From: Patescibacteria group bacterium
GTDB taxonomy: Bacteria > Patescibacteriota > UBA1384 > UBA12157 > JAENIV01
Direction: 5' to 3'
Assembly (NCBI GenBank): GCA_023485405.1
Contig: JAMCZU010000018.1
Coordinates: 1-33,315, forward strand
Length of the DNA stretch: 33,315 nt
The notes beneath the pieces are model-generated. The model did no database searches, had not been told where the DNA came from, and saw only the letters and a list, made by a program, of their open reading frames with translations. A program made the translations under genes and the position numbers. The stretch's first letter is position 1, and each line of letters opens with the position of its first letter. This document shows positions 11,485 to 22,852 of the stretch, piece by piece.

Positions 11485-12462
11485 TTAAACCTTCTTTAAA
11501 AATTGAGCGGCTAGTTCCGGCGAGACAACATCAATGACGATTCCTGAACCCATTTCGTAGCCACCAAATTTAGAGACTCTGGGCGCAATTTCCAAATGCC
11601 AATGGTAATAATCATCCAAATGATCTTTTTTAACTGGGCTAGTATGAACCCACCAGTTAAGTGGTGGTGATTTTAGCGATGCATTTAGTTTCGATAAGCA
11701 ATCATAAACCACTCGCCCCATATTATCAAGCTCTCCTTGAGAAATTTGTTCAAAAAACGATGAATGTTTTTTAGGCAAGACCCAAATTTCAAAAGGAAAA
11801 CGAGAAGCAAAAAAGGTGAAAGCAACAAAATCTTCATTTTCCGAGACAATTCGACAATTTTGCTTTTTTTCTTCTTCGATCATGGCGCAAAAAACACATT
11901 TACCTTTATCTTGAAAAAACTTTTTTGAACCAACTAACTCATCTTCGATTAAATTAGGAATAATTGATGAAGCAAAAAACTGTGAGTGTGGATGTTCAAT
12001 CGAAGCCGCTGCCTCTGGTCCTAAATTATGGATTGGCATCGCATATTCAATAGCCGCATCTTTTTTCCAAAACAAATATCTTTCCTTGTAAACACCAAAT
12101 AATTCCGTCAACGGTTCCCAGCCACCTTCATAAACTTCTGTTTCGTGATCTTTAAAAATAATCACTTCATGGCCACCAACCGATTTAGTTGAAAAATAAA
12201 AATCATCACTTTCATTAATAACTTCCTCGTCCGCACTGTTAAAAGCTGGGTATTTATTGGGAATAACATAGATATTGTCAGTTTCGGCATCTTTAATAGA
12301 AAATTGATAAGCACTTTTCGGGTTAGTCAAACAGAAGGGACATTCTCCGTCCATATGTCTTTTGGGCGCCGAGGCCATCACAAAATCTTCCGGCCGTTTC
12401 GCTCGTTCAGGGGCAATTACCACCCATTTACCGGTCACAATATTTTGCCTTAATTTCGCCAT
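11485..12462 (-). CDS. galT: galactose-1-phosphate uridylyltransferase
   Basis: MAKLRQNIVTGKWVVIAPERAKRPEDF, CPFC, GPEAAASIEHPHSQ, HWHLEIAPR; start placed at MAKLRQN with SD agagg. Confidence 0.9.
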   Translation of the reverse strand: MAKLRQNIVTGKWVVIAPERAKRPEDFVMASAPKRHMDGECPFCLTNPKSAYQFSIKDAETDNIYVIPNKYPAFNSADEEVINESDDFYFSTKSVGGHEVIIFKDHETEVYEGGWEPLTELFGVYKERYLFWKKDAAIEYAMPIHNLGPEAAASIEHPHSQFFASSIIPNLIEDELVGSKKFFQDKGKCVFCAMIEEEKKQNCRIVSENEDFVAFTFFASRFPFEIWVLPKKHSSFFEQISQGELDNMGRVVYDCLSKLNASLKSPPLNWWVHTSPVKKDHLDDYYHWHLEIAPRVSKFGGYEMGSGIVIDVVSPELAAQFLKKV

Positions 12463-12526
12463 AATTCCTCTCTGCAAAATTCCGCGACAAGCGTAAGCTT
12501 GTCCATATTTTGTCTTAATTTAGCCA
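12440..12526 (-). repeat. palindromic element (12486-12503) flanked by 22-bp direct repeats of the galT start
   Basis: TGGCTAAATTAAGACAAAATAT (12505-12526) vs TGGCGAAATTAAGGCAAAATAT (12440-12461), 20/22; palindrome GACAAGC-GTAA-GCTTGTC between them. Confidence 0.85.
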
Positions 12527-12527
12527 A
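12450..12527 (-). other. upstream ORF duplicating the galT N-terminus (MAKLRQNMDKLTLVAEFCREELWRN*)
   Basis: TTG start preceded by AGGAGG; first seven codons encode MAKLRQN as in galT; stop lies inside galT codons 3-5, out of frame. Confidence 0.7.
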
Positions 12528-12536
12528 ACTAACCTC

Positions 12537-13055
12537 CTAAACTATTTTATCTTCTTCGATATATTTATGATAACGAGCCATCGCCACCGCTAGGGCGTCG
12601 GCAGCATCATCAAAACCATCTTTTTTGCCCGAGCTGATATTACGCTGCGGATTTAAGGCCTTGATCACTTCTGCCATCACTTCTTTTTTATCAGATCGGC
12701 CGTAACCCGTCACCGCCAATTTTACCTGCATCGGTGTGTATTCGAAAGTTTGCAGAGCTAATTCTGATTTGGCACAAGCAAGTAAAATCACCCCACGTGC
12801 TTCCGAAATTTTCATCACCGTTTTTTGATTATTAAACATAAACAATAATTCAATCGCAATCTGATCGGGTTTATATTGCGCTATCAAACTAATTATATCA
12901 TTAAAAACACGATTCAAGCGCTCCGAGTCTCGCATCAATTTATCGGTTTCAATGCAACCGTGCGCCACCCAAGAAAGAGCGCCATCACTTTCCGAAACAT
13001 CAATCACGCCCCAACCACACCTGGCGCTGCCCGGATCGATCCCTAAAATTCTCAA
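12537..13055 (-). CDS. ruvC: Holliday junction resolvase RuvC
   Basis: MRILGIDPGSARCGWGVID, AIELLFMFNNQKT, DDAADALAVA. Confidence 0.95.
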   Translation of the reverse strand: MRILGIDPGSARCGWGVIDVSESDGALSWVAHGCIETDKLMRDSERLNRVFNDIISLIAQYKPDQIAIELLFMFNNQKTVMKISEARGVILLACAKSELALQTFEYTPMQVKLAVTGYGRSDKKEVMAEVIKALNPQRNISSGKKDGFDDAADALAVAMARYHKYIEEDKIV

Positions 13056-19546: not shown

Positions 19547-19591
19547 ATGACAAAAGATTACTATAGCCAGCTAAAGCTGTCGCGGAAATAA
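19547..19591 (+). other. short uORF encoding a second DnaJ-like N-terminus (MTKDYYSQLKLSRK*)
   Basis: ATG...TAA, in frame with dnaJ 57 nt downstream ([14 protein letters not shown]). Confidence 0.7.
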
Positions 19592-19603
19592 TTTGTTAAA
19601 AAA

Positions 19604-20212
19604 ATGGAAAAAAATTATTATAAAATTTTAAATGTTTCTAAAGATGCCACTGCCGATGAAATAAAAAAAGCCTACCGAAAATTGGCTTTACAATATCATC
19701 CTGATAAAAATCAAGATCATCAAGACGGTAAGCGTTTTAAAGAAATTAATGAAGCCTATCAGGTTCTTTCTGATCCACAAAAAAGAGCGAGGTACGATCA
19801 ATTCGGCACCGCTGATGATAATTTTTCGTCTTCTTGGAATACCCAGGGTGCTGATTTTCGAGATTTCGGTGGATTTTCCAAAGGTGGCTTTGGTTTTGGC
19901 GGTGGCTTAGGTGATATTTTTGAAGATTTTTTCGGCAGCGTGTTTTCTCAGGTGCAAAGTGAAATCGAAATTAATCTAACTTCTGCTATTTTAGGCGATA
20001 CTTTAAATTTGCAAACATCACAAGGCGAAACAATCACTTTAAGAATTCCGCCCGGCACGCAAGATGGCCAAAGTTTCCGTTTTCCAGGCCGCGGAATGAG
20101 TACTAAACGCGGACGTGGCGACTTAATTATTACCGTGAGAGTTAAAATTCCCCGCCGCTTTTCCAGACAGCAAAAAGAGTTATTGGAGCAGTTGAAAAAC
20201 TTAGGACTGTAA
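19604..20212 (+). CDS. dnaJ: short DnaJ-like co-chaperone lacking the zinc-finger domain
   Basis: J domain with HPDK, G/F-rich region, then a single C-terminal beta domain ([18 protein letters not shown]). Confidence 0.88.
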
Positions 20213-22234: not shown

Positions 22235-22444
22235 TTACTTTAAGAAATAGATTTCAAAACCATAAAACCCGTGGATCAAAACAACAATTAAAAGAATCCA
22301 CCAAACAAGTTTTCGATGAACCCAAAAAGGTAGTTTCAAAATTCGAGTGCCAATTGAAATTTGCAACAATAAAAGAAATAAAGCTAAAAATCCTAGCCAA
22401 ATATGAAGGGGTTTTGCAAAAATTAAGGGATCAGCTAAAATCAT
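22235..22444 (-). CDS. two-TM histidine-containing protein, resembling half of a cytochrome b561-type module
   Basis: HIWLGFLALFLLLLQ...HRKLVWWILLIVVLIHGFYG; overlaps the cupredoxin ORF by 4 nt. Confidence 0.6.
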   Translation of the reverse strand: MILADPLIFAKPLHIWLGFLALFLLLLQISIGTRILKLPFWVHRKLVWWILLIVVLIHGFYGFEIYFLK

Positions 22445-22800
22445 TGAACGATTATTTTCCCTTTCATTTGTGGATGAATGCTACAATGAAAATCAAAGGT
22501 ACCGGTTGTATCGAAGGTGTGTTTGAAATTGTCTCCCGGTTTAAGATCGCTGCTCTTAAAATCAGCAAAAGTAACAGTGTGAGTGGTTGAATCGTTGTTA
22601 ATAAAAGTTACTTCTGTTCCTTTCGTCACAGTTAATTCCGAAGGATTAAAGGAGAAATTTTTAATTGAAATCGTATTTGATCCAACCGAAGTTACGGTTG
22701 TAGGTGTTGAAGAATATTTTGATTTGTAAAGGTATTTATACCCCAAATACCCTAAAACAATCAAAACGATCACCAAAATAATAATCCATAAATTTTTCAT
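22441..22800 (-). CDS. membrane-anchored cupredoxin (type 1 copper)
   Basis: N-terminal TM; TTHTVTF and CSIHPQM give His, Cys, His, Met ligands. Confidence 0.88.
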   Translation of the reverse strand: MKNLWIIILVIVLIVLGYLGYKYLYKSKYSSTPTTVTSVGSNTISIKNFSFNPSELTVTKGTEVTFINNDSTTHTVTFADFKSSDLKPGDNFKHTFDTTGTFDFHCSIHPQMKGKIIVQ

Positions 22801-22821
22801 ATTTCTCTCCTTTCTTGAAAG

Positions 22822-22852
22822 AAATTCCGCGATAAGCGTAGCTTATCCATCT
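22822..22852 (-). repeat. palindromic element upstream of the cupredoxin gene (same family as 12479-12506)
   Basis: GATAAGC-GTA-GCTTATC adjoining TCGCGGAATT (minus strand). Confidence 0.8.

Follow-up and report, generated by a model that had tools for sequence, protein, structure and literature searches.

Why does the start of a galT-like gene stand twice, on either side of a short palindrome? The locus lies in a window (the whole stretch of DNA analysed, 33,315 nucleotides) that is contig 15 of a 37-contig, 832 kb genome (G000). The first-pass annotation described an AGGAGG, TTG-MAKLRQN, the palindrome and ATG-MAKLRQN in succession, with a flank identity of 20/22, a spacing of 65 and a 25-codon Open Reading Frame (ORF) ending inside galT, and the minus-strand sequence agrees with it at every point. 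The ruvC stop codon TAG occupies 12539–12537, where the AGGAGG overlaps it. TTG GCT AAA TTA AGA CAA AAT begins at 12527 and ATG GCG AAA TTA AGG CAA AAT at 12462, and GCGGAATTTTGCAGAGAGGAATT stands between the palindrome (12503–12486) and this ATG. The two start copies end at the 5' foot of the palindrome, and the 25-codon ORF terminates with TAA at 12452–12450. Pfam confirms RuvC upstream and GalP_UDP_transf (galactose-1-phosphate uridylyltransferase-like) downstream. The features of the junction are as follows.

12533–12538, minus strand: native Shine-Dalgarno sequence AGGAGG, overlapping the ruvC stop (sequence)
12505–12527, minus strand: 5' (putatively ancestral) galT start copy TTGGCTAAATTAAGACAAAATAT with the native AGGAGG site (sequence, flank test; TTG and AGGAGG also in G001 and G003)
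12486–12503, minus strand: hairpin H1, GACAAGC-TTAC-GCTTGTC (sequence, alignment, covariation, fold)
12442–12480, minus strand: hairpin H2, ATTTTGC (12480–12474) pairing with GCAAAAT (12448–12442) (alignment to covariance model)
12467–12473, minus strand: replacement Shine-Dalgarno sequence AGAGAGG on the 3' side of the element (sequence; putative use)
12440–12462, minus strand: 3' (putatively new, in-frame) galT start copy ATGGCGAAATTAAGGCAAAATAT (sequence, flank test, junctions of relatives)
12450–12527, minus strand: 25-codon ORF from the old TTG, ending within galT just past the new ATG (sequence)
11485–12462, minus strand: galT-like gene, 325 aa when read from the new ATG, with the N and C domains of GalP_UDP_transf (Pfam)
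12438–12507, minus strand: whole galT element, from the 5' TATGG foot to the 3' ATTG, 57 bits (covariance model)

The combination of palindrome and start duplication is not due to chance: the galT flank pair has p=0.0002 against mismatched flank pairs, and the genome has 15 copies of the palindrome, this one included. The galT copy scored 57 bits although it was left out when the covariance model was built. According to the model pairing, the GCAAAAT arm of H2 sits within the duplicated start, so that the H2 loop contains the new ribosome site together with the ATG; DNA folding of the galT copy alone favours a slightly different H2. In our view, the galT feature is very probably a copy of a short, non-coding, mobile two-hairpin DNA element whose insertion copied the gene start.

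A DNA search finds the palindrome at three further places in the same genome. When two mismatches were allowed, the pattern search found 6 copies in G000, 0 in G001, 32 in G002 (a complete relative in one contig) and 3 in G003, while the reversed control pattern gave 0 matches in these four members of the order. The covariance model raises the numbers to 15 copies in G000, 66 in G002 and 4 in G003. It finds no copy in 52 of 55 class genomes (G001 and 51 others) and none in 377 of 380 phylum genomes, under strict filters that may have passed over relatives of the element that are weak or diverged. Among the matches listed for an exact-pattern scan of genome contigs, single chance hits in unrelated genomes predominate; viral contigs gave no exact pattern match. 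At some loci the element forms head-to-tail tandem arrays.

In the aligned copies, the element is about 50 bp long and consists of (A/G)T(A/G)G, hairpin H1 with a 7 bp stem, GCGG, hairpin H2 with the core A(A/T)TTT...AAA(A/T)T, and AT. The 5' foot is RTRG in 71 of 76 copies (ATAG in 38, ATGG in 27, GTAG in 6). On this side RTRG and H1 are joined to a host site that ends in AT and is typically A/T-rich, for example AAAATAT; on the 3' side, AT follows H2. Of the stem cells in 82 distinct copies, 93% pair in the alignment fitted to the model, which was built with loops padded by N after a first MAFFT alignment had misplaced H2. An earlier model-free alignment agrees, although its loops had been padded manually in view of the hairpins. 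Both sides of a pair are changed in 227 stem cells of H1 and H2, compared with 60 in shuffles (0/500), and sliding the partner column by one destroys the signal. Both-side changes affect 6 of the 7 pairs of H1, matching the compensatory stem changes of the 20–40 bp REP palindromes. The stems hold 978 Watson-Crick pairs and 14 G-T pairs, and mismatches (C-T or T-C) are frequent at the second H1 pair. Since helices of RNA usually change by way of G-U pairs, we read the near-absence of G-T as a sign that the hairpin is important, or is corrected, at the level of DNA. A conserved leader peptide was considered as well and rejected, since half of the copies have ATAG rather than ATGG at the foot and the length of H1 varies in all three frames.

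To describe placement, we used the 76 copies scoring at least 28 bits. Almost half of them (36 of 76) have their end precisely at the ATG of an ORF on the same strand, where 0.22 would be expected from the flank base rate. Orientation is nearly strict: on the 3' side, 55 copies have an ORF start within 40 nt, and 2 have an opposite-strand ORF start at the 5' side. The H2 3' arm commonly carries a GGA-type ribosome site just before the ATG. Adjoining genes include rplP, rplF, rpmF, rpmE, rpmI, rpoC and recA, as well as murC, mraY, folD, uvrC, lexA and dnaJ, named by sequence resemblance and, for the window genes only, tested by Pfam. The reading frame is open for 200 nt on both sides through the element in 3 copies.

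A minority of copies lie off gene starts, in tandem arrays, in frame in a prepilin gene or nested in a RAYT palindrome. In the prepilin-like leader (L031 ~1470–1540; G002:C1:239085), the in-frame element stands just before GFTLVEV with TAGCCAAG on both sides. The nested copy TATAGACTAAAGTCGCCGAAATTTCTACCGAAATTATAG lies in a palindrome 3' of a RAYT gene in G003 (L178 ~2000–2060). In two places the 5' TAG of the element is apparently the stop codon of the upstream ribosomal protein gene, namely that of rplP in G003 (L210:1909–1955) and, at G002:C1:818173–818221, that of the gene before rplP. A weak element-like match away from gene starts, G002:C1:337677–337745 (L316), is flanked by a 40-nt imperfect direct repeat (28/40) that ends at the junction.

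If the element was inserted, relatives should hold empty junctions, and the first-pass annotation called for a search for one between ruvC and galT. This junction has a single start and no element in G001, G002, G003 and the more distant G007. Orthologous junctions were collected for galT and some twenty other genes (21 genes, 57 loci), and the covariance model detects no element at any tested start; its two matches in these loci both lie away from the tested junctions. The relatives belong to different genera at family-to-order distance, so some of the junction differences could reflect divergence. Among the genes tested, G000 and G002 have no insertion site in common, from which the two lineages seem to have gained their copies after they diverged.

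The annotation also proposed looking for further palindromes with flanking repeats, and members of the dispersed family do duplicate their flank or start. In the anchored test, the 5' flank was fixed at the element junction and compared with all sequence downstream of GCGGA, tandem copies being excluded. The mean flank score is 7.07 versus 5.90 (sd 0.18) for mismatched pairs, a value reached in 0 of 20,000 permutations, and scores of at least 10 occur in 12 copies, against an expectation of 2.8. Most of the excess disappears once the anchor is moved by at least 8 nt, and an initial comparison made without regard to the junction gave a weaker result (81/20,000). Copies of the AT|G class, taken by themselves, show a modest excess (39/20,000 and 596/20,000), so a long duplication is not obligatory. 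The expected duplication at other copies thus holds in part: it is clear and long in about 9–12 of about 71 non-tandem copies, ranging from about 11 to 28 nt, and most copies have none beyond AT. The clearest cases are listed here; the ABC, DUF721-like, phd-like and dnaJ cases are singly non-significant at the DNA level and rest on protein-level agreement and position.

galT: 20/22, MAKLRQN/MAKLRQN
G002:751303: 19/21, MQGLEII/MQVLEII
pilN: 13/14, MIN/MIN
recA: 13/14, ribosome site and start
lexA: 21/28, decayed
ABC ATPase gene, G000 contig 6: MENI/MENI, one copy with TTG
phd-like gene: MKKT (upstream)/MRKI
DUF721-like gene: among the clearest flank duplications

Two further elements lie in the window itself.

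19562–19623, plus strand: second window element, at dnaJ, 31.5 bits (covariance model)
19547–19564, plus strand: putative old dnaJ start copy ATGACAAAAGATTACTAT, MTKDYY (flank test, relatives)
19604–19621, plus strand: putative new dnaJ start copy ATGGAAAAAAATTATTAT, MEKNYY, in frame with DnaJ (flank test, relatives, Pfam)
22797–22851, minus strand: third window element, adjoining the ATG of a cupredoxin-like gene (22441–22800), 47.4 bits (covariance model, Pfam)

The dnaJ locus bears on which copy is older. DnaJ of relatives starts with M(A/S)KDYY or MSKDFY, nearer to the upstream MTKDYY than to the downstream MEKNYY, and in the phd-like gene the upstream MKKT is likewise nearer to relatives than the downstream copy. 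These resemblances indicate that the old start is the one upstream, the in-frame downstream copy being new.

We propose that the element moves in a single-stranded hairpin form that would be recognised by an enzyme acting in trans and joined at AT on both sides. In about half of the copies the insertion point would be the AT|G of the start codon, which would leave the ORF untouched, and the H2 3' arm would provide a new ribosome site of the GGA type. Entry would have been a few codons downstream in galT, dnaJ, pilN and a small number of other genes, duplicating the stretch from the start codon to the insertion point; the downstream in-frame copy would now act as the start, and the upstream copy would be a relic opening a short ORF. 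Insertions within coding sequence would survive only if the start was copied, and those without a regenerated start were probably removed by purifying selection. Part of the replacement ribosome site at galT could have evolved later, because the duplication there stops near the ATG.

In the model, the duplicated target is also the pairing partner of the H2 5' arm in galT (ATTTTGC/GCAAAAT), pilN (GTTTA/TAAAC) and dnaJ (AATAATTT/AAATTATT), which suggests that this arm may take part in the choice of target. Its pairing with the original 5' flank is modest, at 3.97 of 9 compared with 3.58 in permuted pairs (49/20,000). The arm reads AATTTTCC or ATTTTCTCC, and the complements are GGAAAAT and GGAGAAAAT. 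Tentatively, the element might actively target translation starts, with the H2 5' arm as a DNA guide pairing with the Shine-Dalgarno sequence and spacer and joining at AT|G, a proposal that we regard as possible but rather unlikely.

The insertion reading of the first-pass annotation, in which the gene start was duplicated and a replacement ribosome site supplied, is borne out by the element-free single-start junctions, the dispersed family and the other duplicated flanks. What the annotation named as evidence against it was a relative carrying both MAKLRQN copies without the element, or an absence of flank duplication at other copies; neither was found. Its second reading, a tandem duplication at galT that captured a pre-existing palindrome, agrees with the two starts being direct repeats 65 bp apart, and the head-to-tail arrays elsewhere indicate that slippage occurs. 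However, no relative has the palindrome at the ruvC-galT junction, and the same element with unrelated flanks is present at dozens of other, unrelated gene starts, which leaves this reading highly improbable. A cis-acting RNA leader, in which the two hairpins would regulate translation with H2 masking the ribosome site, deserves more weight and is still improbable. The element's strict orientation, exact abutment on start codons, ribosome site within the H2 3' arm and strong covariation all fit such a leader, but the regulon would include rplP, rplF, rpmF, rpoC, recA and murC, genes that adjoin the element with no common pathway, and the orthologues in relatives are without the element at every tested gene. 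Copies off starts, in tandem or in frame in the prepilin leader fit poorly as well, and so does the rarity of pair changes through G-U (14 G-T versus 978 Watson-Crick), unlike RNA helices in general. The Rfam search of the window, in which tRNAs alone reach the gathering score, gives no match for the element. A secondary regulatory effect at single genes is possible.

Within the preferred explanation of a mobile element, a narrower form holds that a REP-type repeat was moved by the genome's own RAYT or IS200-like Y1 transposase. The RTRG foot (71 of 76) resembles the GTAG/GTRG tag of REPs (PMC3733652, PMC8266576), H1 frequently retains a C-T mismatch, comparable to the bulge retained in E. coli REPs, and Y1 genes occur in all four genomes. 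Against this, the inspected RAYTs have palindromes of their own on either side, different from the element and often with the core ACCTNCGAGGT, the inspected IS200-like copies are flanked by other hairpins, and G001 has four Y1 matches but no element. We know of no variable long flank duplications for IS200/IS605 chemistry, which weakens this form further, and we hold it to be rather unlikely. Target-primed insertion by reverse transcription could explain why the clearer duplications vary in length (~11 to 28 nt), but G002, with 66 copies, has no RVT_1 match and G001 has five matches and no element, so that such a route appears extremely improbable; a recognisable reverse transcriptase encoded in G002 is effectively refuted as the mobiliser. 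No mobilising enzyme was found among the inspected Y1/RAYT/IS200-like loci or the RVT_1 matches, and the inspected RAYT and IS200-like genes were rejected as cognate mobilisers, their flanking palindromes being different from the element.

The RAYT-type Y1 genes (~223–255 aa) number several per genome, with about nine in G000, and have their own palindromes, unrelated to the element, on both sides (L184, L178, L190, L188, L181 and other Y1 loci in G000, G001 and G003; L186 in G002). Two IS200-like copies in G002 (L172 and L176; G002:C1:124384 and 910880) encode the same 170-aa protein, and this suggests recent IS activity there.

Among known repeats, REPs are small palindromes that occur in many copies and have no coding capacity; the 5' foot of their hairpin carries a conserved tetranucleotide, and their stems vary in a compensatory manner (PMC3733652, PMC2817692, PMC8266576). 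The element shares all of these traits, but its foot is RTRG, with GTAG proper in 6 of 76, it has a second covarying hairpin (H2) and often ends on start codons, and a subset of copies has flank duplications. No cognate RAYT flanked by the same repeat was seen at the inspected Y1/RAYT loci. YPAL of Yersinia is a 168 bp intergenic repeat with internal inverted repeats and target duplications of 3–26 bp (review PMC2229807). YPAL and RU-2 resemble the element in small size, internal inverted repeats and a target duplication of variable length, as found here; YPAL, however, is intergenic, no start-codon register is described for it in PMC2229807, and the difference in length alone (~50 versus 168 bp) argues against a sequence relation. 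Rickettsia palindromic elements (~105–150 bp), many of them tolerated as in-frame inserts in proteins (PMC2229807, PMC10969869), are also palindromic repeats that spread in a reduced genome and affect genes. There the insert stays in the protein, whereas the present family has one clear in-frame insert (prepilin, L031), with 36 of 76 copies at a start codon and 3 frame-open.

Like MITEs such as RUP and ERIC, the element is short, non-autonomous and accompanied by a target duplication (0/20,000 permutations) that is clear in a subset only. Unlike them, it has no terminal inverted repeats, its ends being RTRG and AT around two separate internal hairpins, and the duplication is not a fixed TA but varies. 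By analogy, the ends of IS200/IS605 have subterminal hairpins and a short 5' motif possibly guiding to the cleavage site (PMC8266576). Here, however, no transposase gene lies between the ends, ~50 bp leaving no room for one, Y1 genes lie elsewhere, and a subset of copies has long flank duplications. In the searched papers on candidate-phyla bacteria, we found no description of a RAYT/REP, MITE or similar palindrome family. The element is therefore classed as a start-codon-associated small palindromic mobile repeat (REP/MITE/YPAL-like) outside every tested family, and the start-codon register and start duplication are its distinctive features.

Gene-start annotation is affected in turn: in two genomes, the leaders of dozens of genes are changed, and some of these genes have double starts. 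The family also raises the question of which enzyme moves such repeats, and it offers a testable example of a mobile element with a start-codon register. The usual view of small palindromic repeats is that they are passive and lie outside genes. In reduced genomes, this family often adjoins the very start codon of core genes (rplP, rplF, rpoC, recA, dnaJ, murC), and provides sequence evidence of how an insertion at a gene start was survived, the start being copied and a ribosome site supplied. If the targeting proposal is true, starts would be a safe-site strategy in a nearly gap-free genome, in which joining downstream would copy the start and the gene would survive.
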